Source: Thermococci archaeon (GTDB lineage Archaea; Methanobacteriota_B; Thermococci; Thermococcales; Thermococcaceae). Taken from it: 11,412 nt of DNA. The stretch spans positions 1-11,412 of the forward strand of contig QMUE01000023.1 of the NCBI GenBank assembly GCA_003663535.1, written 5' to 3'. Of this stretch, positions 1,244 through 10,357 are shown piece after piece (the stretch's first letter is position 1; the number at the start of each line of letters is the position of its first letter). The notes under the pieces were generated by a model. It searched no databases. It was not told the origin of the DNA and was given only the letters and a program-made list of their open reading frames with translations. The translations under genes and the position numbers were made by a program.

Positions 1244-3031
1244 TTGTTAGATACTAAAGACGATATTGAGGCAAGATTCAAAGAACTATGCAAAGATATA
1301 GATAATAAAATAAAAAATAAAGAATTTGATTCCGAGTTTGAAAATTTAATATTTTCCCTCAAAGAAGAATTCGAACTATTAATTAGGTACTATAACTTAA
1401 TCAATAGAGAACTTGATGCGTTGTATATAACTCATAACTTTTACATTAGATATAGTATATGGGAAGCTTTAACAAACCAAGCATCTTTTATTGCATCATA
1501 CTCAAAGGCATTAATGCTACTATTAGAACGGTATTTAAAGAGCCCATATTCCTATAAGAGCTTAACAAATCAAATAAAAATGTTCTCAGCATATATGATA
1601 AATATTAAGCGGGATATTAGAGTAGAAAAGCAAAAAATGAATCTAACTCCGAAAGACATAACCCAAAATGCAGAAATACTAGTTCAACTATGTGACACTC
1701 TTAATAAAGACAACCAGTTACGGGAAAAATTGCTAAAGGATACCCAACTAAGCTACATATTATACTGGATATTAAGATCTCAACTTTATTATACACTGAA
1801 AATAACCAACAATGAATACAATCTGGATAATCTTAATTTAATTGAAAAAACATTGAAAAAATTGCAAGAGTCTATTTCGTGTTTTTGTACTGAAGATTCA
1901 AATATTCTTTATGCTAAATCTCTACTTCATGAAGGATTTTTTAAAGCTTATAAACAAAAACTTTTTGCTGAACTCCGAAAAAAGGAGAAAAATGAGTCTA
2001 TAATTAAGAATTTAGTAAAAAAATGCAAAGATCATTCAAAAGCTGCGGAAAGACACTATAGACAATTCAAAGGAGTTCTCAAAGAAGATTATCATGATTT
2101 TTCATATCTTGGTCATAAAATTGATATATTAATGGCCGAGTATTTTGAACGGTTGTATGTTAAAAAGAAGATTATAAAAGCTATTAAAAAGCTTGGTGAA
2201 GTTAGATCTGTCCTAATGGAGAAATCTTTTGAGAACTCCTTTGAGGCTTTGAAAAGTACGGGACATATACGATTTATATCCCAAGAATACCACTTACTAC
2301 AAACCTATCTCAAGTTATTAGCGTTATATTCAGATATAGTCAATTTAAAAGAACAGCTACCTCCAACCTATGAGAAATGGATATTGGACTTATTTAGCAC
2401 ATTGGAGCAAGGACTAGCCAAATTAGTGGAAGAGTTCTATAAGTATCCAAGAACACTCGATACCCAACATGAATTGAAGCTATTCCCGCGAACATTTATT
2501 GGAAGTTTTTCTGAATATGTAGTTTATCAGCTCATCGAACGAATAAATTCAAAAGGAATCCAGCTAGAAGCATGCATTGGGAAAGAGTACTTAAGTGCAC
2601 CTCTTATTGAGATTAACAACACTCTATGCGACCGTTGTAAAGTTGAATTTAGATATAGGCCCTCTAAGGACCCTAAAGACCCTGATATAGATATCGCTAT
2701 ACTTAATGAGACTCAGAATTTAATTGGTATATCCGTTAAAAATGGACATCTAAAAGGTAATCTCAGAGATATAAAACACGAGTTTGATCTTGCTAAAAAG
2801 CATGGATTTAGGTGCTTTATTGTAGTTATTAACTTTCTTAAAAACATTGATCTTGTTTCTGAGATCACTAACCTTAAACATCATCTACTAGCGGAGAAGG
2901 GTGGGATGTCTGTATACTTTATAGATTTAAAGGACTTTGTTGAATGCCTTATTGACAATGTCCAGAAACAAGATGATGAATTTTTACTTCCTATGCCCAA
3001 AGATGAACTGTTATATTCCCTAGATTATTAA
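1244..3031 (+). CDS. Uncharacterised 595-residue protein between hsdM and hsdS, possible C-terminal nuclease-like domain
   Basis: I do not recognise this family. The start is TTG at 1244, placed by a GGGAGGG site 6 nt upstream. Residues 1 to about 410 look almost wholly alpha-helical and Lys/Glu-rich, with many Tyr and Leu, no signal peptide and no clear membrane segment. The C-terminal part, about 415-570, looks like a compact alpha/beta domain: a helix with E424 (GSFSEYVVYQLIERI), C462xxC465, a strand with D481 and D483 (PDIDIAIL), then a strand ending in S497-V-K499 (LIGISVKNG), a helix, and a further strand (CFIVVINF). That order resembles the PD-(D/E)XK nuclease core, with Ser in the usual Glu/Asp position. 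This resemblance is an inference from motif order only. The gene is much more AT-rich than hsdM, which suggests separate acquisition. It sits inside the M-S operon, 15 nt after hsdM and 14 nt before hsdS, so it is probably co-expressed. It could be a second effector, a regulator or an accessory restriction factor; a catalytically dead domain is also possible. Confidence 0.8.
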   Translation: MLDTKDDIEARFKELCKDIDNKIKNKEFDSEFENLIFSLKEEFELLIRYYNLINRELDALYITHNFYIRYSIWEALTNQASFIASYSKALMLLLERYLKSPYSYKSLTNQIKMFSAYMINIKRDIRVEKQKMNLTPKDITQNAEILVQLCDTLNKDNQLREKLLKDTQLSYILYWILRSQLYYTLKITNNEYNLDNLNLIEKTLKKLQESISCFCTEDSNILYAKSLLHEGFFKAYKQKLFAELRKKEKNESIIKNLVKKCKDHSKAAERHYRQFKGVLKEDYHDFSYLGHKIDILMAEYFERLYVKKKIIKAIKKLGEVRSVLMEKSFENSFEALKSTGHIRFISQEYHLLQTYLKLLALYSDIVNLKEQLPPTYEKWILDLFSTLEQGLAKLVEEFYKYPRTLDTQHELKLFPRTFIGSFSEYVVYQLIERINSKGIQLEACIGKEYLSAPLIEINNTLCDRCKVEFRYRPSKDPKDPDIDIAILNETQNLIGISVKNGHLKGNLRDIKHEFDLAKKHGFRCFIVVINFLKNIDLVSEITNLKHHLLAEKGGMSVYFIDLKDFVECLIDNVQKQDDEFLLPMPKDELLYSLDY

Positions 3032-3045
3032 CGGAGGGATATTAA

Positions 3046-4323
3046 ATGAAAGCTAAAACCAAGTTCAAAAAAACTCTAATTGGTGAGATTCCCGAGGATT
3101 GGGAAGTTATAAGAATTAGAGACATAATTATAGAAGTTAAACCTGGGTTTGCAAGTGGCAAAAGAGATGAAAATGGAATAATCCAGCTTAGAATGAACAA
3201 CATAACGACGGATGGGAGAGTCGTACTTGATGAATACTTAAAAGTTCCAATACCTAAAAATGTTGAGAATTACCTTTTAAAACCCGGTGATGTTCTGTTC
3301 AACAACACAAATAGCGTAGATTTAATTGGTAAAACTGCCATATTTAGAGGTGAATGTGATTTTTGCACGTATAGTAATCACATAACAAGAATTAGGGTTA
3401 AACAGGATGTTGTAATTCCCGAATGGGTGATGTATTATTTTATTAAACTTTGGAGTGAAGGGTATTTTAGACAAATATGTGTCAGGCATGTAGGGCAAGC
3501 AGGTATTAGAAAAGAAAACCTGTTAAACACAAAAATCCCCCTCCCTCCACTTCCCGAACAAAAGAAAATCGCCGGGATTCTGAGAACGGTTGATGAAGCG
3601 ATTGAAAAAACTGACTTGGCAATTGAAAAGACGGAGCGCTTAAAGAAGGGCTTGATGCAGAGGCTTTTGACCAAAGGAATCAAGCACGAGAGGTTTAAGA
3701 AAACAGAGATTGGGGAGATTCCTGAGGATTGGGAAGTTGTTAGGTTAAAGGACATTGCAGATAAGATGTACTATGGGATTACAGCAAAAGCAATAGAAAA
3801 TATGTCATCTCTTAGAATGTTACGAACCACAGATATCAAGAATTATAAGATTAGTTGGAAAACTTTACCTTACTGCGAGATTACAGAGAAAAGAAAGGAT
3901 ATAAAGAAATACTTTGTTCAAAAAGATGATCTCATAATTGCAAGGGCTGGAACAGTTGGAGTCTCGGTTTTAGTAGAAGAGAATGTAAGCAACGTCATTT
4001 TTGGTTCATATCTAATTAAAGTTGTTCTGAAAAAGGATAAAGTGTACCCTCGATTTATCCATTATTATTTCCAATCAGATTACTACTGGAGACATATTCA
4101 AAACGCTTCTTCTGGGAGTACTCTGAAAAATATCAACTTGCCCATTTTAAGATCTCTTAAAATCCCCCTCCCACCCCTCGAAGAACAAAAGCAAATCGCC
4201 GAAATCCTCATGACAGTTGACAAAAAGCTCGAGCTCTTAAGGAAGCGCAAAGAAAAGCTTGAGAGAATTAAGAAGGGCTTGATGAAAGATTTGCTGACTG
4301 GAAGGAGGAGGGTGAAAGCGTAA
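3046..4323 (+). CDS. hsdS: Type I restriction-modification specificity subunit HsdS
   Basis: Recognises the bipartite target DNA sequence and holds the two HsdM copies. The 425-residue protein has the classic two-fold layout: target-recognition domain 1 (about 10-165) opens with IGEIPEDWEVIRI, then a conserved helical spacer (about 165-215, KIPLPPLPEQKKIAGIL...ERLKKGLMQRLL). Domain 2 (about 217-372) opens with the near-identical IGEIPEDWEVVRL and is followed by the second spacer (373-420, KIPLPPLEEQKQIAEIL...ERIKKGLMKDLL). Both GDVL/DDLI and TRD-type segments differ strongly between halves, as expected for two different half-sites. The ATG at 3046 is preceded by GGAGGGAT 5 nt away. The length is usual for the family. 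The gene is full length and intact, so a functional methylase is likely. The next gene starts within the stop codon. Confidence 0.96.
   Translation: MKAKTKFKKTLIGEIPEDWEVIRIRDIIIEVKPGFASGKRDENGIIQLRMNNITTDGRVVLDEYLKVPIPKNVENYLLKPGDVLFNNTNSVDLIGKTAIFRGECDFCTYSNHITRIRVKQDVVIPEWVMYYFIKLWSEGYFRQICVRHVGQAGIRKENLLNTKIPLPPLPEQKKIAGILRTVDEAIEKTDLAIEKTERLKKGLMQRLLTKGIKHERFKKTEIGEIPEDWEVVRLKDIADKMYYGITAKAIENMSSLRMLRTTDIKNYKISWKTLPYCEITEKRKDIKKYFVQKDDLIIARAGTVGVSVLVEENVSNVIFGSYLIKVVLKKDKVYPRFIHYYFQSDYYWRHIQNASSGSTLKNINLPILRSLKIPLPPLEEQKQIAEILMTVDKKLELLRKRKEKLERIKKGLMKDLLTGRRRVKA
3061..3123 (+). repeat. Direct repeat at the start of HsdS recognition domain 1 (second copy 3691-3753)
   Basis: A stretch of about 63 nt encoding FKKxxIGEIPEDWEVxR recurs gapless 630 nt downstream at the start of domain 2. 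The identical core runs through GAGATTCC-GAGGATTGGGAAGTT. Such paired repeats flank each recognition domain and can serve as crossover points for domain exchange between hsdS alleles. Confidence 0.8.
3532..3672 (+). repeat. Direct repeat encoding the HsdS conserved spacer (second copy 4159-4299)
   Basis: About 141 nt align without gaps at an offset of 627 nt. The best-preserved blocks are AAAATCCCCCTCCC (3532 and 4159), GAACAAAAG-AAATCGCCG and AAGAAGGGCTTGATG. They encode the IPLPPL-EQK-IA helix that spaces the two recognition domains. Middle parts have diverged, notably the helix after TVD. Confidence 0.8.
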
Positions 4324-5138
4324 TGCTCAACCTCTCCTCTCTGACAACCTTAGACATCTCAGCAATAATCGTATTGGCGAGTGTTGTCCTTTATTATTTT
4401 GGTAGGCTAATAGCGGATACACATGTCGAACAGGCTGATAAATCCGCTCTTTATGTTACAGGGTTCATATTCGTAGTATTCTTTATTTTGATTCCAGGCA
4501 TAGTCGTTTACTATGTTCGGGATTATCTTACGGGGATACCTTTAGGTGTACTATTATTCCTCCAGATTCTAATTTTCTCAATGCTCTCATGGACATTAAA
4601 GACATATGAGTATTTTCTGAAACATGGCTTGTCAAATGTATTTCGAAAGATGTACATTAAGAAATTGGAGGAAATTAAAAAGAACAACACCATGCTTGGA
4701 AGCCTCTTCAGAAACTACGAGGACATTATAAAGAGAACCCTCGGAGATCCAGTCTCTGTTTTCCTAAATGCGCTAGAGCTCAACCGAAAGATTTCTAGTA
4801 ACTATACCTTTTTAATGTTGGCCTCGGCTATATCCATCCTTTCTATCCATAGAGCAATATCAAAAAACTCTCTAATCTTTACTGCGGTTACTTCAATACT
4901 CGGAGTCTTTATTTTCACCATGATAGCACTTGTTTATGGATTTAGTACTGCATATTATCCTCCAGCAGTTATTTATCTGAGAGATGGGGAAATTCTCCGT
5001 GGCAAGCTTCTGAAATTTGGAGATTTCATTTATTTGCTCGACGAAGATAGGAAGGTTAAGATATTCGTTAATAGACAGGAGATCAAGTATTTAGAGGAGA
5101 GTTTATTTAAAAATCAGTGGCCGGAAAAGTCAGTCTGA
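4323..5138 (+). CDS. Membrane protein of unknown function at the end of the hsdM-X-hsdS operon
   Basis: I do not recognise the family. The 271-residue protein has about five hydrophobic segments: near residues 12-31, 44-65, 71-92, 161-178 and 183-208. A basic, probably cytosolic helical segment (93-160, with KKLEEIKKNN) separates the third and fourth. The last 55 residues form a soluble, beta-rich stretch (AVIYLRDGEILRGKLLKFG, then IYLLDEDRKVKIFVNRQEI) that reads like a small SH3- or Sm-like barrel; this is inference. The ATG overlaps the hsdS stop by one base (TAATG), and a GGAGGAGGGTGA ribosome site lies 7 nt upstream inside the end of hsdS, so translation is probably coupled to hsdS. Membrane proteins are not standard type I subunits. 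Possible roles are a membrane-linked effector, an anchor or an unrelated passenger gene; the sequence does not decide. Confidence 0.75.
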   Translation: MLNLSSLTTLDISAIIVLASVVLYYFGRLIADTHVEQADKSALYVTGFIFVVFFILIPGIVVYYVRDYLTGIPLGVLLFLQILIFSMLSWTLKTYEYFLKHGLSNVFRKMYIKKLEEIKKNNTMLGSLFRNYEDIIKRTLGDPVSVFLNALELNRKISSNYTFLMLASAISILSIHRAISKNSLIFTAVTSILGVFIFTMIALVYGFSTAYYPPAVIYLRDGEILRGKLLKFGDFIYLLDEDRKVKIFVNRQEIKYLEESLFKNQWPEKSV

Positions 5139-5166: not shown

Positions 5167-5180
5167 CAAAAAGTATAAGT
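5167..5180 (+). promoter_or_regulatory. Candidate archaeal promoter (BRE/TATA) before the small ORF and structured RNA
   Basis: CAAAAAG followed by TATAAGT resembles a BRE-TATA pair. A start of transcription about 25 nt downstream would fall near 5200-5205, just before the GGAGGT ribosome site at 5218. The surrounding DNA is very AT-rich, so the match could be chance. Confidence 0.4.
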
Positions 5181-5227
5181 ATTAGATAATCATACAAAAT
5201 AATATACTGTCATATGTGGAGGTTGGG

Positions 5228-5383
5228 ATGCTCCTCGCTCTAGTAGCCTCAGCAGATCTAGTAACTACAGTAATGCTGATACAACTTGTAAGGGAGGTGA
5301 TAGAGATGGGCAAGTGCCTATCTACATGGTTGCAGAAGTATAAGGGTGGAGTGGCGGTCCCCCTCTGGGGTCGGAGGTACTAG
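5228..5383 (+). CDS. Possible small ORF (51 codons), hydrophobic N-terminus
   Basis: ATG at 5228 follows GGAGGT (5218-5223) by 4 nt and opens a 51-codon frame ending TAG at 5381-5383. Residues 2-21 are hydrophobic (LLALVASADLVTTVMLIQLV), which would suit a single membrane helix; the rest is short and basic (KCLSTWLQKYKGG, ending WGRRY). An internal in-frame ATG at 5306 has an even stronger ribosome site, GGAGGTGAT (5293-5301), and would give a 25-residue product (GKCLSTWLQKYKGG). The last 40 nt overlap the GC-rich foldable segment that starts at 5344, so coding and RNA structure compete for the same bases. No family is recognised. It may be a real small protein, or an open frame by chance inside a longer non-coding RNA. 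Confidence 0.35.
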   Translation: MLLALVASADLVTTVMLIQLVREVIEMGKCLSTWLQKYKGGVAVPLWGRRY

Positions 5384-5462
5384 GGGATCGTCATACAGGG
5401 TGAGGAGCATTTCACCCTCGCTCCCCAGAGGGTGTGGGGGTTCGACTCCCCCACCTCCGCCC
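5344..5462 (+). ncRNA. Candidate structured RNA: three-way junction with a tRNA-like T-loop hairpin
   Basis: This segment is strikingly GC-rich within AT-rich DNA, a known mark of structural RNA in AT-rich hyperthermophiles. It folds as follows. P1 pairs GGGTGGAG (5344-5351) with CTCCGCCC (5455-5462), 8 pairs with one G-U. P2 pairs CCCTCTGGGG (5361-5370) with CCCCAGAGGG (5423-5432), 10 pairs. Inside P2, AGGGTGA (5397-5403) pairs with TCACCCT (5412-5418) around the loop GGAGCATT. P3 pairs GTGGGGG (5434-5440) with CCCCCAC (5448-5454) around TTCGACT, which fits the T-loop consensus TTCRANY exactly. P3 abuts P1 with no gap. It is not a standard tRNA (no D arm, no 7-nt anticodon loop) and lacks an ACA box after P2. 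It may be an independent ncRNA, the 3' part of a longer one beginning near 5205, an mRNA control element, or a remnant of a mobile element or tRNA-targeted integration. The fold is seen; its function is unknown. Confidence 0.5.
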
Positions 5463-5562
5463 GCATAGAGTCAAGATGAAAAGTAAGTTTTAGAATTTGT
5501 CTTAGGGTCTCCGCCTATCTGATTGATGTTAACCCCTTTAACTACCCACTCAAAAACAAACA

Positions 5563-5599: not shown

Positions 5600-5605
5600 G
5601 GTGAG
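5600..5605 (+). promoter_or_regulatory. Ribosome binding site deciding the antitoxin start
   Basis: GGTGAG lies 4 nt before the ATG at 5610. It overlaps an earlier in-frame ATG (5598), which has no ribosome site of its own and sits at the predicted transcription start. The same ATGGTGAG-4 nt-ATG arrangement recurs before the EVE gene at 9911-9925. Confidence 0.6.
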
Positions 5606-5609
5606 AGTT

Positions 5610-5807
5610 ATGCAGGTTATTGAGGCCGTTTATGAGAATGGAGTTTTAAAGCCCCTGAAAAAGCTGAAGCTCAAAGAGCACTCAAAGGTCATCATCAAGA
5701 TAATAGACGAGGAGGAGCTTGATAAACTTCTCAGCTCAATGGTTATTGAGAAGATTGAGAATATCGACTACAAAAAGCTCAAGGAGGCTTATTATGAGCC
5801 CCTCTAA
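5610..5807 (+). CDS. DUF104-type (AF2212-like) antitoxin
   Basis: A 65-residue protein whose first half, VIEAVYENGVLKPLKKLKL, is the signature of the DUF104/AF2212-like antitoxin family: a short beta-hairpin with the ExVYENGVLKPL motif, then KxHSKVIIKI. The acidic, helical C-terminus (about 34-65, DEEELDKLL...DYKKLKEAYYEPL) would wrap the toxin. The family usually pairs with PIN-domain toxins and neutralises them, and often represses its own promoter. I chose ATG 5610 because of the GGTGAG site 4 nt upstream and because it matches the family start; the longer open frame from 5523 runs through the promoter and is not credible. The toxin gene overlaps its end by 14 nt. Confidence 0.9.
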   Translation: MQVIEAVYENGVLKPLKKLKLKEHSKVIIKIIDEEELDKLLSSMVIEKIENIDYKKLKEAYYEPL

Positions 5808-6258
5808 TGTGTTTATTGATTCTTCTGTGCTGGTTGGCTTAAATCTTGGAGATGAGAAAGCAAAAGAACTCGTGAAATCCCTCATAGAGAGGGGATGCGT
5901 CCTCATTATAAATCCCCTAGTTTTCTCTGAAACAGCGTATAAGGTTATGTTCACATTAGCCCTTAAGGATGGAATAAAAGGTGTCCATGACCTAAAAAAG
6001 CATCTGGACAAATATACCTGGGCCTATGGGAAGGTTAAAGACTCAATTACACTACTAATAAAAAATGAACTTTTAAAGGTTGTCGAAGTCAACTGGGAAA
6101 TACTTGAGTTATCTGCAGAGATCGGAGAGAAATACACCCTTTTGACCAATGATGCAATAATAGCCGCTACATGTAAACACTATGGGATAAAGAAGATAGC
6201 AACTTTTGATGGGGATTTTAAGAAAGTTGACTTCCTTGAGGTTATTGATTCTCCATAA
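5794..6258 (+). CDS. PIN-domain ribonuclease toxin (VapC-like)
   Basis: A 154-residue PIN-domain protein, probably a metal-dependent ribonuclease that is blocked by the antitoxin encoded just upstream. Likely acidic active-site residues are D9 (VFIDSSVL), E47 (NPLVFSETAYK), D120 (LLTNDAIIAA) and D139 or D141 (ATFDGDFKKV). The TNDAxxAAxCKxYG and IATFDxDF motifs are typical of the family, and the length is normal. ATG 5794 has AAGGAGG 6 nt upstream within the antitoxin end, and the 14-nt overlap implies coupled translation. The pair sits between the two halves of the type I locus and 17 nt before hsdR, so readthrough from its promoter may drive hsdR. RNA target is unknown from sequence. Confidence 0.92.
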   Translation: MSPSNVFIDSSVLVGLNLGDEKAKELVKSLIERGCVLIINPLVFSETAYKVMFTLALKDGIKGVHDLKKHLDKYTWAYGKVKDSITLLIKNELLKVVEVNWEILELSAEIGEKYTLLTNDAIIAATCKHYGIKKIATFDGDFKKVDFLEVIDSP

Positions 6259-6275: not shown

Positions 6276-9221
6276 ATGGTGGAGTGGGAGCAGTGTGAGA
6301 GGCCTATAATTGAAAGGCTCACCTCAGTAGGCTGGCAATATAAAAAGGGAAATGAAGTTCTTGAGGGGGAGAACGAACCTCTTCTAACCTCTCGATTAAT
6401 AGAAGCCATCAAGAGAATTAATAATGTAAGTGACAAAGAAGCCCAAATGGCTTTAACAATATTAACTACTACCCCTACAAGCATTGAAGGTGCTAGAAAG
6501 ATTTTACACTACATAAAAGAAGGAGTGCCAATAAAGGATGAAGAGGGAAACCCACAGCAAATAGCACTTATTGACTACAATAACACCGAAAACAATGATT
6601 TTCTAGTTGCCAATCAGGTTAGACAAACGGGAAAACAGCTTAGAATTTTAGACGCCATCTTGTACATCAATGGCATCCCCTTGGTCGCTGTAGAGTGCAA
6701 ACAAATGAAAAGAAGCTGGAAACTTGCTTATCAACAGATAAAAGCTTATGAAGAGGATCTGCCAAACCTTTTCAAATACGTTCAGTTCAGCATCGCAATT
6801 GGAGATAGAGTGGTTTACTTTCCAAATGTCTCAGGACTCAAAAATGTTCCCGTGTACGAATGGAAAGGTAAATACTTTGATGATCTGGACAATCTGATGG
6901 AACTCCTAAACCCCCCATCTCTCTTAGACGCACTAAGATACTTCATTTTTTATAGAGAAGACAAAGGCATCATAACTAAAGTTCTTCCAAGGTATATGCA
7001 ATACGAGGCCTCTAACCTAATAGTCGAGAGGGCCGTTAAATATGCCAGAGAGGAAAATTACAGAAACAAAGGGTTAATCTGGCACTGGCAGGGAAGCGGT
7101 AAAACTCTTACCATGATCTTCTCAGCCTATAAAATAAAGAGACTCCTTGGAAATCCAACCATATTTTTTATAGTCGATAGAAAAGAGCTTGAAGACCAGC
7201 TTGCAGGAGAGCTTAAGTCTGTCGGCCTGAGCTTTGAAGTTATAGGTTCAATAAACAAGCTCAAAGAAGTGCTTATGCATGCCGATGGAAAAAGAGGCAT
7301 CTTTATAACTCTCATCCACAAATTCAGAGAAGAAGAGCTTAGAGAAGTTAGAGAAGAGCTCATAAAACTGAGTAAAAGAAATAAAACAATAATGACTCGA
7401 AAGGATGTTGTGGTATTCATAGATGAGGGCCACAGAACACAATATGGAGACCTTGCTGCAAGCATGCGCTCTATACTCAGGACAGCTTCTTTCTTTGCAT
7501 TTACCGGAACACCAATATCTAAAAAGGATAGGGATACCTACCAAGTCTTTGGTTATCCCGATGAACCCTATCTTCACAGATACTTCATAACTGATTCTAT
7601 AAGAGACGGATTTACAGTCAAAATCGCTTATCAACCAAGGCTCGAAAATGATGTGCATTTAAAGAAAGAAGAACTGGAGGCCTTTCTCTCATCAAAGCTA
7701 GAAGAAATACCTGAAGAATACAGAGAGAAGGTTAAAGCGGAGCTAAAAAAGAAGTTAAATACTATAAAAGTCTTCTTAAAGAATCCGAAGAGAATAGAAC
7801 TCATTGTCAGGGATATAGCAAAGCATTACATAGAACACGTGGAGCCCTTTAAAGCGATGGTGGTTGCAGTTGACAGAGAAGCGTGTGTTCTTTACAAAGA
7901 AGCATTTGATAAGTTGCTACCTTCAGAATATACTGAGATCGTGATGACATATAACCCCAGTGACGCAAATGAACCAGAGAAAATAAGAGAGTACCATAAA
8001 AAACTTAGAGAGCGCTTTTTGGGGAAAGATGACAAAGAAATTACCGAAGAAATAGTAAACAGATTCAAATACAGAGACACTCCAAAGATATTGATAGTTA
8101 CTGATATGCTCTTAACGGGATTCGATGCCCCAATTTTACAGACTATGTACTTAGATAAACCTCTAAAAGAGCATCGTCTTCTTCAAGCCATAGCTAGAAC
8201 TAACAGGCCATATCTAAGAGATGGAGAGAATATAAAGTCCTTTGGACTTATAATAGATTATGTAGGAATCTTTAAAGAGCTTAAGAGGGCCTTGGAGATT
8301 TACGATGAGGTAGACATACGAGAAGTGGCCACTGACATCAAAAAGATAAAAGAAAAACTTAAAAGCGATATAGAAAAGGCTCTATCGTTTTTTGAAGGGA
8401 TTGAAGTTAAGGATGATAGAGAAAATATAATGAAGGCTGTTGAAATTCTATTTAAGAAAGAGTCTTGGGATGAATTCCAGAAACTTTATAGAAGTATTAG
8501 ATACCACTACAAGCTCTTAAAAGAAGATAGGTTGGAGTTTAAAAATACCTTTGCATGGCTGACTCAGGTTTATTATGCGTACTATGCCAAAGTCGAAGGA
8601 TTGCCACCAGAAATTGAGATCAAAAAAGATGAATTTGTTGAGGATGCCCTGAAATTCATTCACGAAACCGTAAACCTCGGAAAGATCACTAAAGATTTCC
8701 CAATAATAGAAATCGATGAAAGATTTTTGGGGAAGATTACAAAGCAGAAACCAAACGAAAGAACGTTTACTGACTTGCTATTTGCTGTTAGGAGATATAT
8801 AAACATTCATCGTGGCCCTCTTACAGAAGATCTCGTGGAACAAGTGGAAAGCATAGTAGAAAGGTGGAAACACAAAAAAGAAGAAATAGCTAAGCTCTAT
8901 AAAGAAATATTGGACATTGCTCAGCAAATCCAAGAAAGAGAAGAGGAAAAGAAGAAATTGAATTTAAGCGAGCTAGAGTATTCCATTGTGACCATTTTAA
9001 AACGTCATATAGGCGACAATCCACAATTAATAGAAGATACAAAAACTCTTCTCAATGAAACTGAAGATCTAAGATTTCCAAGATGGCAGGAAAAAAGCGA
9101 TATAATAAGTACTATCTCCAGAAAAGTTATGATATTCCTGGTCAGGAAGTATAAAGACAAAATAGATAACGTCATCAGGACCAGAGATGAGATCATGGAG
9201 GTGCTAAAAAGGTGGGGTTAA
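6276..9221 (+). CDS. hsdR: Type I restriction enzyme motor and endonuclease subunit HsdR
   Basis: Binds the methylase core, pumps DNA using ATP and cuts far from unmodified sites. Numbering from ATG 6276 (981 residues): the N-terminal PD-(D/E)XK nuclease has D126 (RILDAILYI) and E140-C-K142 (VAVECKQMK), followed by the family QxxxY motif (QQIKAYEE, about 153-160). The SF2 translocase follows: Walker A WQGSGKT (271-277), motif II DEGH (383-386), motif III TGTP (410-413), motif V TDMLLTGFDAP (609-619) and motif VI QAIARTNRP (637-645). The C-terminal third is helical, with a charged coiled coil near 860-910. TTG at 6264 is an alternative start, but ATG 6276 has GGTG 6 nt before it. All key residues are present, so the enzyme should be active. 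It is separated from hsdM/hsdS by the membrane protein, RNA segment and toxin pair. The next gene overlaps its end by 10 nt. Confidence 0.96.
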   Translation: MVEWEQCERPIIERLTSVGWQYKKGNEVLEGENEPLLTSRLIEAIKRINNVSDKEAQMALTILTTTPTSIEGARKILHYIKEGVPIKDEEGNPQQIALIDYNNTENNDFLVANQVRQTGKQLRILDAILYINGIPLVAVECKQMKRSWKLAYQQIKAYEEDLPNLFKYVQFSIAIGDRVVYFPNVSGLKNVPVYEWKGKYFDDLDNLMELLNPPSLLDALRYFIFYREDKGIITKVLPRYMQYEASNLIVERAVKYAREENYRNKGLIWHWQGSGKTLTMIFSAYKIKRLLGNPTIFFIVDRKELEDQLAGELKSVGLSFEVIGSINKLKEVLMHADGKRGIFITLIHKFREEELREVREELIKLSKRNKTIMTRKDVVVFIDEGHRTQYGDLAASMRSILRTASFFAFTGTPISKKDRDTYQVFGYPDEPYLHRYFITDSIRDGFTVKIAYQPRLENDVHLKKEELEAFLSSKLEEIPEEYREKVKAELKKKLNTIKVFLKNPKRIELIVRDIAKHYIEHVEPFKAMVVAVDREACVLYKEAFDKLLPSEYTEIVMTYNPSDANEPEKIREYHKKLRERFLGKDDKEITEEIVNRFKYRDTPKILIVTDMLLTGFDAPILQTMYLDKPLKEHRLLQAIARTNRPYLRDGENIKSFGLIIDYVGIFKELKRALEIYDEVDIREVATDIKKIKEKLKSDIEKALSFFEGIEVKDDRENIMKAVEILFKKESWDEFQKLYRSIRYHYKLLKEDRLEFKNTFAWLTQVYYAYYAKVEGLPPEIEIKKDEFVEDALKFIHETVNLGKITKDFPIIEIDERFLGKITKQKPNERTFTDLLFAVRRYINIHRGPLTEDLVEQVESIVERWKHKKEEIAKLYKEILDIAQQIQEREEEKKKLNLSELEYSIVTILKRHIGDNPQLIEDTKTLLNETEDLRFPRWQEKSDIISTISRKVMIFLVRKYKDKIDNVIRTRDEIMEVLKRWG

Positions 9222-9877
9222 ACTATAAAATCATTATAAGAAATGTAAAATACCCGAGAATCGAAATAACTCCTTTGGGTGAAATCAAGGTTATAGTTTC
9301 ACCGAATATGGATCCTACTGAATTTATAAAGCAAAAAGAGAAATGGATAACATCAAAGCTAAAGGAAATTAGCGATCTAAGGGCCCAGTTTGCCCATTTT
9401 TCCACCAAATTTCTTTTTAATGGTGAATTTTATTCCATGATTAAAGGAGAAGAGTTTTATGTGAACACCAATTTCAAAGCGATCTCATTAAAAGAGGGAG
9501 ATTTAAAACAACTGAAAATCTGGCTCAAAACCAAGCTTAAACAGGAATTAGACTTCAAAGTACGCCTATTTGCTTCATTATTGGGAGTCAAATATCGAAA
9601 AATATACATTCGTTTTCAAAAGACAAAATGGGCCAGTTGTTCCGCAAAAGGAAATTTGAGCTTCAATTTGGCACTAATGGCACTACCAGAATATCTCAGA
9701 GATTATATAATACTCCATGAGCTTGTTCATCTGAAAGTGGCTAAGCATAACAAGAGGTTTTGGGAGACAATTCAAGTCTATCACCCCGAATACAAAAAAG
9801 CAGAAGCTGAGCTAAGAAAATACTGGCTTCTTTTGGAATGGAATGAGATTTGGAAAAAACTAAGAGAAATCAAGTAA
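9212..9877 (+). CDS. YgjP/SprT-like (DUF45, M48-type) metallopeptidase
   Basis: A 221-residue protein of the YgjP-like family, with the hallmark zinc motif H169-E-L-V-H173 and a third ligand at H179 (KHNKRFWE). It is preceded by the family's TKWASCSAKGNLSFN segment (138-152) and LPEYLRDYIILHE. There is no signal peptide or membrane segment, so it is probably cytosolic. The GTG start at 9212 lies inside the last codons of hsdR (10-nt overlap) and has GGAGGTG (9197-9203) 8 nt upstream, implying coupled translation with HsdR. Genes of this family are often found beside type I hsdR genes. Known relatives are predicted zinc proteases or hydrolases with poorly known substrates. A role in handling HsdR or other components of the restriction complex is inference from the overlap. 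Confidence 0.88.
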   Translation: MGLNYKIIIRNVKYPRIEITPLGEIKVIVSPNMDPTEFIKQKEKWITSKLKEISDLRAQFAHFSTKFLFNGEFYSMIKGEEFYVNTNFKAISLKEGDLKQLKIWLKTKLKQELDFKVRLFASLLGVKYRKIYIRFQKTKWASCSAKGNLSFNLALMALPEYLRDYIILHELVHLKVAKHNKRFWETIQVYHPEYKKAEAELRKYWLLLEWNEIWKKLREIK

Positions 9878-9912
9878 AGAGTTATTAAGGATAAGGAGCT
9901 TAGTCTTTTAAT

Positions 9913-9918
9913 GGTGAG
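9913..9918 (+). promoter_or_regulatory. Ribosome binding site deciding the EVE gene start
   Basis: GGTGAG lies 4 nt before ATG 9923 and overlaps an earlier in-frame ATG at 9911. The family also begins with MTYWxCIT, which supports the later start. Confidence 0.6.
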
Positions 9919-9922
9919 TCCC

Positions 9923-10357
9923 ATGACCTACTGGCTCTGCATAACCAATAGGGATAATTGGAATGTGATTAAAAAGAGAAAGATTTGGGGTGTACCAAAG
10001 AGACATAAAAACACTATTACCAAAGTCAAGCCCGGTGATAAGCTCCTCATTTACGTGAAGCAGGAAAGGAAGGACAAACAAATTCTTGAGCCAAAAATCG
10101 TTGGCATTTTTGAAGTAGTTAGCGAGCCCTATGAAGACTCAAAAAGAATCTTCAAAAGCCCACCACATCTAAACGAAACTTACCCGCTGAGGATCAAGAT
10201 AAAGCCCATGAAGCTTGGCGAAGTTGACTTCAAACAATTAATTCCAAAACTAAAGTTCATCACAAACAAGAAGAAGTGGAGCGGCCACTTAATGGGCAAA
10301 GCTATGAGAGGAATCCCGGAAGAGGACTACAAACTAATCGAGAAGCTACTTCGATAA
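9923..10357 (+). CDS. EVE-domain (PUA-like) protein, PH1033 family
   Basis: A 144-residue stand-alone EVE domain (UPF0310). It opens with [18 protein letters not shown], then WGVPKRHKN (22-30), [11 protein letters not shown] (35-45), and the late block [20 protein letters not shown] with the C-terminal [12 protein letters not shown]. These match, from memory, the structurally solved P. horikoshii PH1033. EVE domains share the PUA fold and are known or predicted to bind modified bases in DNA or RNA, including methylated cytosine and adenine; they often accompany modification-dependent restriction enzymes. Beside a type I adenine methylase it could read the modified base, but PH1033-type proteins are widespread in Thermococcales, so it may be an unrelated housekeeping gene. 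It has its own 45-nt upstream gap with a weak TATA-like TTATTAAG near 9882-9889, so it may be transcribed separately from hsdR. Confidence 0.92.

Follow-up and report, generated by a model that had tools for sequence, protein, structure and literature searches.

Structured RNA elements with a small hydrophobic reading frame in type I restriction loci of Thermococcaceae

According to PMC6733600, a long-distance interaction between the 5' and 3' ends of hok/aapA-type mRNAs blocks translation until the 3' end is removed, and the aapA3 mRNA, which carries a short toxin ORF, is a highly structured molecule of about 225 nt. Type I toxin-antitoxin systems had until then been reported from three bacterial phyla only, to which the paper PMC12390103 adds Cyanobacteria. 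A protein counterpart within a restriction operon is prrC of the EcoprrI type I locus; this antiviral unit is optional and damages the host, and its product is held by the restriction enzyme (PMC3874165).

The element analysed here lies in a window of 11,412 nt, this being the whole stretch of DNA that was studied. The element resembles hok/Sok and aapA/IsoA in having a short ORF, a structured mRNA, and a long-distance 5'–3' pairing over the initiation region, but those systems are bacterial and possess an antisense RNA, whereas no antisense promoter was found in the element. Furthermore, its long-range helix (helix G) covers codons and not a Shine-Dalgarno sequence, and its 3' domain bears a T-arm and an acceptor-like stem. 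The linkage of the element to a restriction locus recalls that of prrC in EcoprrI; unlike PrrC, the element consists of a small peptide gene and a structured RNA, and it is still present where the enzyme genes are gone (genome G086). Searches of the open-licence literature found no description of this element. Nor did they turn up a small-peptide mRNA from archaea that locks itself in the manner of hok/aapA, or a cellular mRNA whose 3' domain is tRNA-like and conserved. The words "RNA" and "intergenic" are absent from the main text of a survey of archaeal restriction systems (PMC10609329).

Locus, extent and members of the element

In the window, the element is framed by the following features:

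1244–3031: ORF of 595 codons, between hsdM and hsdS
4323–5138: ORF of 271 codons, after hsdS and upstream of the element
5174..5179, + strand: TATA-like box TATAAG (consensus match), 42 nt before the GTG of the small ORF
5601–6258: VapBC-like pair (AF2212-like antitoxin and PIN domain), between the element and hsdR
9212–10357: YgjP-like metallopeptidase and EVE-domain protein, after hsdR

An earlier note had described this region as a GC-rich RNA in AT-rich intergenic DNA at 5344..5462. The GC island is real (GC content of 0.61 in 5326–5475 versus 0.35–0.40 in the flanks on both sides), but the region is not purely intergenic, as its first 40 nt belong to a small ORF (5216–5383), which ends inside the structured 3' domain. 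The start at 5344 has to be abandoned, since the conserved element begins near 5174–5216, about 130 nt farther upstream, and spans approximately 5174–5465. Its site between the M/S and R genes is as described before, except that the VapBC-like pair separates it from hsdR. A TATA-like hexamer is found 36–44 nt upstream of the GTG in all of the 11 members described below, and the probable ends of the RNA are near 5200 and near 5465.

By eye, the VapBC-like pair is also present in G004, and in G028, which is devoid of the RNA element; the YgjP-like and EVE-domain genes after hsdR are likewise seen in G004. The 595-codon ORF has no match in Pfam or PADLOC at E ≤ 1, and its C-terminal part recalls, by eye, the PD-(D/E)XK nuclease motif.

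In total, 11 members were found among 94 Thermococcaceae genomes, and they form two subfamilies, one of six (G000, which is the window, G004, G080, G086, G065, and G108) and one of five (G103, G072, G014, G016, and G109). Blastn against the 94 genomes revealed full-length copies in G004 (92%), G080 (85%), and G086 (83%), while in G065 the window copy matches the last 35 nt; G108 was added by a search with the G065 copy. Short blastn matches in three further genomes (E-values, 0.003–0.009) were taken as chance. G103, G072, G014, and G016 were added by reading upstream of related hsdR genes, using model R1 and the T-arm motif, and the last member is the fragmented G109, whose hsdR is in pieces.

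Searches of 396 archaeal genomes, in which stricter filters were used for both models, gave no further confirmed member. Model R1 returned only the six subfamily-1 members and two tRNA-Leu genes at E ≤ 0.001. At the 15 outside loci checked for R1 (14 + 1, from the higher-ranked matches), a tRNA was found at every match, namely tRNA-Leu, except for the best match of L073, which overlaps a tRNA-Lys. Model R2 had matches in 44 of the same genomes at E ≤ 0.01; the five subfamily-2 members scored 134–152 bits, and all others at most 32.1 bits. Fifteen of the 20 outside loci of R2 were checked: ARAGORN called a tRNA at 12, L154 is a tRNA by Rfam, and L137 and L153 resemble, by eye, intron-bearing tRNAs with a D-arm. 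When applied across subfamilies, R2 gave 16.5–27 bits at the right places of subfamily 1, which does not set them apart from tRNA-Ser genes in the same loci (20.6 and 18.8 bits), and R1 gave 16–23 bits on three subfamily-2 members. Because of these low cross-scores, it is their position, ORF, and helix G that link the two subfamilies, and the searches may have overlooked divergent members. The element was seen in Thermococcaceae only, where it is rare.

A phage or plasmid element was considered and rejected, as blastn of 5180–5500 yielded 13 weak phage records (eight of them annotated as tRNA-Ser) and zero plasmid matches. A contig scan with a pattern unable to match most of the family gave four matches, G108 and three bacterial records. 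In viral contigs, two patterns for the 3' end of subfamily 1, one of them faulty, matched nothing, and a subfamily-2 pattern matched eight contigs, two of them beside tRNA arrays and six without an ARAGORN tRNA. The latter six contigs (L157, L158, and L161–L164) match GGGGTTCRAATCCCCNCGCCCC.

The small hydrophobic reading frame

The coding part of the element comprises the following features:

5216..5383, + strand: small hydrophobic ORF of 55 codons, GTG at 5216, stop TAG at 5381–5383; VEVGMLLALVASADLVTTVMLIQLVREVIEMGKCLSTWLQKYKGGVAVPLWGRRY
5294..5308, + strand: Shine-Dalgarno-like GGAGGTGAT followed by an in-frame ATG at 5306

The ORF is open from the GTG in 11 of 11 members, has 47–57 codons, and stops within the structured domain; a plain noncoding RNA was rejected on account of this conserved frame. 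Over the first 35 codons, no stops occur in frame 0 of the 11 members, the +1 frame contains 3 to 9, and the +2 frame is stop-free in six members and has one or two stops in five. The mean hydropathy of the first 35 residues is 1.0–2.2 in frame 0 and negative in both other frames. The peak 19-residue hydropathy of the peptide (1.5–2.3) makes a membrane segment likely, not certain; AlphaFold2 predicts, with moderate confidence, a single helix (residues 3–42; mean pLDDT, 68; pTM, 0.33).

Synonymous changes between G103 and G014 amount to 16 of 44 in frame 0 versus 7 of 44 and 8 of 44 in the other frames, and between G072 and G016 to 16 of 42 versus 6 and 9, while close subfamily-2 pairs have no clear synonymous excess. 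For subfamily 1, dN/dS is 0.46–0.88, a sign of weak purifying selection on the ORF, and the contrast between frames is small (mean pS of 0.21 and pN of 0.13 in frame 0; 0.18/0.14 and 0.15/0.15 in the others). In G109, the C-terminus is frame-shifted by a one-base insertion.

When 5.8 billion proteins were searched with a profile, 10 clusters scored E ≤ 0.1, and hypothetical proteins from Thermococcus barossii, T. aciditolerans, and Thermococcus sp. are among them. Three of the proteins (P0009, P0010, and P0011) have differing C-termini: P0010 and P0011 fit a frame change, and P0009 reads on through the T-arm. For two small ORFs, one per subfamily, no match was found in Pfam or PADLOC at E-values up to 1.

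The start codon is uncertain, the candidates being GTG 5216, ATG 5228, and ATG 5306. No Shine-Dalgarno sequence was found upstream of GTG 5216, and ATG 5228, an alternative start, is present among the members only in the window and G004. Based on the good Shine-Dalgarno-like motif before it, a similar form of which was matched in 10 of 11 members, ATG 5306 is a possible internal start of a 25-codon form.

Long-range helix G and the tRNA-like 3' domain

The strands of the helices and the 3' end are located as follows:

5227..5241, + strand: helix G, 5' strand, in the start region of the ORF; pairs with 5397–5411
5397..5411, + strand: helix G, 3' strand, purine-rich
5216..5223, + strand: helix H, 5' strand GUGGAGGU; pairs with 5453–5460
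5344..5351, + strand: helix F (acceptor-like), 5' strand; pairs with 5455–5462; the 8-bp helix of the earlier note
5351..5362, + strand: helix A, 5' strand; pairs with 5383–5394
5383..5394, + strand: helix A, 3' strand
5361..5370, + strand: helix B, 5' strand; pairs with 5423–5432; the 10-bp helix of the earlier note
5423..5432, + strand: helix B, 3' strand
5372..5378, + strand: alternative acceptor C, 5' strand CGGAGGT; pairs with ACCTCCG at 5453–5459
5436..5452, + strand: T-arm GGGGG-TTCGACT-CCCCC, 7 bp if counted over 5434–5454
5453..5462, + strand: 3' acceptor-like strand ACCTCCGCCC, common to helices H, F, and C
5463..5465, + strand: GCA at the 3' end

The best-supported helix, G, had been missed before; one of its strands falls outside 5344..5462. 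This helix of 15 bp joins codons 4–9 of the ORF to the 3' domain and has 13–15 pairs in each of the 11 members (counted over 14 positions in G103 and G072). In the 10 distinct sequences, 94% of the cells are paired, and both-side changes are found at 11 of the 15 pairs. When 3' strands were swapped across all species, the observed pairing was reached in 0 of 2000 swaps and the both-side count in 6 of 2000; for swaps within subfamilies, the corresponding numbers were 2 of 2000 and 127 of 2000. The values of the six subfamily-1 RNAs were reached by 0 to 5 of 2000 shuffles of their own 5' segment. Such compensatory changes in homologues, the check that had been named when the RNA was noticed, support a functional structured RNA, and both the structure and the coding of the element are well supported.

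All three helices originally drawn are present: the 8-bp helix (GGGTGGAG at 5344–5351 with CTCCGCCC at 5455–5462, including one G-U pair), the 10-bp helix (CCCTCTGGGG at 5361–5370 with CCCCAGAGGG at 5423–5432), and the 7-bp T-arm-like hairpin with a canonical T-loop (GTGGGGG-TTCGACT-CCCCCAC at 5434–5454). The compact three-way junction built from them, however, is not the most stable fold, as forcing the 8- and 10-bp helices carries a penalty of 13.5 kcal/mol relative to the fold with helix G at 37 °C. Compared with shuffled sequences, the fold of 5344–5462 has a z-score of −2.41 (2 of 200 as good), and that of 5200–5470 has a z-score of −3.64 (0 of 200 as good). At 37 °C, all 11 members have the nested G fold either as their minimum or no more than 6.4 kcal/mol above it, and this fold beats the combination of F and B in 10 of 11 members both at 37 °C (not in G014) and at 80 °C (not in G109). 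Helix G crosses helices F and B, which implies a pseudoknot or an RNA switch. A local hairpin near 5398–5417, whose 5' half coincides with the 3' strand of helix G, lacks conservation and was discarded.

In subfamily 1 at 37 °C, the probability of helix G is 0.77–0.98 in all six RNAs, and the first 24 nt of the ORF are unpaired with a probability of 0.07–0.16 in the full-length RNA versus 0.21–0.41 in the RNA cut before the 3' strand of G; at 80 °C, these values are 0.10–0.38 and 0.43–0.64, respectively. In a control with the 15-nt 3' strand reversed, the unpaired probability at 37 °C was 0.14–0.27 in five of the six RNAs, with scarcely any shift in G080 (0.13 to 0.14), and 0.43 in G108; at 80 °C, it was 0.25–0.56 versus 0.10–0.38 for the full RNA. 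This modest opening indicates that, in the model, helix G can be replaced in part by other pairings. In subfamily 2, the fold model, which excludes pseudoknots, assigns helix G a probability of 0.06–0.93 at 37 °C and 0.11–0.57 at 80 °C. There the opening effect is weaker: G103 shows none at 37 °C, and at 80 °C the strand-reversed RNAs of G014 and G109 are less open than the unaltered ones. As the folding controls are only partly clean, the case for helix G rests on covariation, not on folds.

Helices F and B are kept between the subfamilies despite quite different sequences. Helix F is weaker in G108 (2 of 8 mismatched), G072 (3 of 9), and G109 (1 of 9), and helix B of G108 is, by eye, an 8-bp match of CCUCUGGG with CCCAGAGG. 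Helix A is built from other letters in G065 and G108, with 11 Watson-Crick pairs in each and an outer mismatch; in combination with helix B, it would form an H-type pseudoknot. Acceptors F and C are both possible, either 5' strand being able to pair with the one 3' strand, and the two F/C 5' strands may mark a strand-exchange switch. Helix H has 8 bp in four of the six subfamily-1 members, 7 of 8 in G108, and is bulged in G065 (by eye). Inspection by eye did not reveal it in subfamily 2, for which it was rejected as a universal acceptor.

The 5' strands of F and C resemble each other in the members, and in G103 both are GTGGGGGCG. In G004, an earlier copy of the C-strand motif is present.

The T-loop consensus is found in 10 of 11 members, the exception being G108 with a 6-nt loop, TTCGCT (UUCGCU; L054, about 1510–1530). 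The outer T-stem pair of subfamily 2 is G-C in two members, U-A in two, and a mismatch in G103. At the 3' end corresponding to the GCA of the window, the other five of the six subfamily-1 members have CCCACA, i.e., an encoded CCA, and this end is unconserved in subfamily 2. The 3' domain is similar to class II tRNA in its T-loop (UUCRANU), in the acceptor adjoining the T-stem, and, for most of subfamily 1, in the distance of about 90 nt from the C 5' strand to CCA; it differs from tRNA in having no visible D-arm or anticodon arm and no conserved CCA in subfamily 2.

The previous statement that no standard tRNA, H/ACA, SRP, or RNase P RNA fits agrees with the present results, as ARAGORN found no tRNA or tmRNA in the window and no Rfam family scored above its gathering threshold. 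Across the window and eight other member loci (all but G004 and G080), Rfam gave nothing above gathering at the element. In the window, its sub-threshold matches were tRNA-Sec and tymovirus tRNA-like only; tRNA-Sec (RF01852; gathering, 47) reached 20.9 bits there and 26.3 bits in G086. ARAGORN called no tRNA at the element in seven of 11 members and made doubtful calls in four: tRNA-Ser(AGA) in G080 and G086, and, for G014 and G016, tRNA-??? whose anticodon has only two bases. An identification as tRNA was rejected, given that no D or anticodon arm is visible and that the four ARAGORN calls are doubtful.

A tmRNA-like RNA, in which acceptor and T-arm form the tRNA domain, helix G replaces the anticodon arm, and the enclosed frame encodes the tag, is a reading that we consider very unlikely. 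The G-closed fold of the window can indeed be drawn as acceptor H, long helix G, short arm, and T-arm, CCA is encoded in five of six subfamily-1 members, and, as in tmRNA (RF00023), a long helix connects a T-arm and an acceptor-like stem with a reading frame. Sub-threshold tmRNA matches were obtained in four of the eight loci scanned (G065, 22.4; G103, 21.2; G072, 19.4; and G016, 15.4 bits; gathering, 47), and the two alignments viewed skip most of the model and draw their score from the T-arm and acceptor. On the other hand, the ORF begins 5' of helix G, outside the long helix, and its product is hydrophobic and 47–57 aa long, which is no short degradation tag. The acceptor closure by the 5' end (helix H) is unseen in subfamily 2 and imperfect in G065 and G108, ARAGORN called tmRNA in no member locus, and the window has no Rfam tmRNA match at E ≤ 5. 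To our knowledge, SmpB is not known in archaea, which also counts against this reading. An identification as tmRNA proper was rejected by the model score, the best being 22.4 bits against a gathering score of 47.

The resemblance of T-arm and acceptor to the 3' end of a tRNA gene, together with a tRNA-Ser in the neighbourhood of the element (at a distance of about 0.2 kb in G086 and 4 kb in G065), could also suggest a decaying tRNA gene or the attachment-site remnant of an integrated element. A remnant would not hold compensatory changes and an open frame over 11 members, and blastn of the 94 genomes found no second long copy, short matches only; on these two grounds this origin was rejected, and we regard it as extremely improbable. 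A noncoding tRNA-like RNA, acting as a decoy or as the antitoxin for a nearby PIN-domain nuclease, with the ORF incidental, deserves more credit and is still unlikely. Such an RNA would accord with the T-loop kept in 10 of 11 members, with the best R1 matches outside the family, which are genuine tRNA genes aligned end to end and nearly all tRNA-Leu, and with the PIN genes in the loci of G000, G004, G080, and G065. It is opposed by the ORF, open and hydrophobic in every member, by the codon-type substitution bias between subfamily-2 types, and by the single M-S gap gene tested in G103, which is not PIN (the PIN scan left out G108, G014, G016, G072, and G109).

Linkage to restriction loci and possible role

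Ten of the 11 members lie between hsdS and hsdR or an hsdR remnant. In G086, the restriction genes are gone: hsdMSR are absent from the 14 kb read, where no hsd gene was found, and the genome has no hsdR match at E ≤ 1e-50, while a 286-aa ORF and the element remain. ORFs of this kind (271–286 aa) occur in four of the 94 genomes, which are the four with close subfamily-1 copies. Among 15 genomes with a related HsdR (at least 67% identity to the G080 protein, which is covered fully or for the most part), the element is located upstream of hsdR in nine (G000, G004, G080, G065, G108, G103, G072, G014, and G016) and absent in five (G081, G114, G069, G106, and G028); G112 was counted neither way because its contig ends. 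The M-S and S-R gaps of these loci hold other optional genes, e.g., a PIN-domain protein in the M-S gap of G004, G080, and G065, in place of the 595-codon ORF of the window. Five other cargo proteins gave no match above the Pfam cut-off and none in PADLOC below E 0.01. The restriction locus seems to carry the element as optional cargo, not as an enzyme component. The proposal of a new RNA component of the restriction system is unsupported, since what the element yields is an mRNA whose small ORF is conserved, and since it persists in G086, with no hsd gene in the 14 kb read.

The hsdR of G014 (G014:C1:826121-829065) consists of two overlapping pieces, and an hsdR relative in G077 (G077:C1:1805729-1808235) is broken by several stops.

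As the best explanation, held with middling confidence, we propose that the element, as cargo of the restriction locus, gives a translation-locked mRNA that encodes a small peptide of membrane type and has a tRNA-like domain at its 3' end. Codons 4–9 would pair, over about 155 nt, with the purine-rich strand of the 3' domain that carries the T-arm and the acceptor-like stem. With helix G closed, ribosomes would not initiate on the ORF; opening or removal of the 3' domain would allow the peptide to be made, and this hydrophobic product of 47–57 aa would probably act at the membrane. Because other optional genes occupy the same hsdS–hsdR site, a likely role is that of a dormant effector, either toxin-like or serving abortive infection. 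The analysis itself establishes the family, the ORF, helices G and A, the T-arm, and the linkage to the restriction locus, while the transcript and its ends, the lock, action at the membrane, toxicity, and the release event are inferences. No TATA-like hexamer was found on the antisense strand within the element in any of the 11 members, so there is no candidate antitoxin RNA in it, and the element is not classed as a type I toxin-antitoxin system.

A more specific version, to which we assign a rather small probability, is that the tRNA-like 3' domain serves as a built-in sensor: enzymes acting on tRNA, such as viral nucleases, host PIN ribonucleases, or tRNA maturation enzymes, would cut the tail, helix G would be lost, and the peptide would be made and would stop the infected cell. 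If true, this would constitute an RNA-gated abortive-infection unit inside archaeal type I restriction loci, with a PrrC-like role, but with trigger and toxin in one molecule. The translational lock by itself, if real, would give archaea an RNA-gated effector tied to DNA restriction, and the 11 aligned members and precise helices make the element directly testable.

Instead of encoding an effector, the element might act as a leader or attenuator: the gene that follows, either hsdR or membrane-protein cargo, would then be controlled by refolding and by ribosomes translating the small ORF. A same-strand gene does follow in 10 of 11 members, and the stop codon lies inside the structured domain. 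The next gene varies, however, being VapBC in G000 and G004, an ORF of about 400 aa in G108, G014, G016, and G072, and hsdR in G080 and G065; in G086, it is a tRNA-Ser on the other strand. In addition, a TATA-like stretch is seen by eye between the RNA and hsdR in G065, G108, and G080. We regard control of a downstream gene as distinctly unlikely, and the locked mRNA remains our preferred reading. The proteins of about 400 aa encoded right after the element are located as follows:

L119, 1872–3044: G014
L120, 1713–2996: G016
L122, 1925–3136: G072
L059, 3974–5197: G108

Two of these proteins were tested and gave no Pfam match above the cut-off. They have N-terminal hydrophobic segments.
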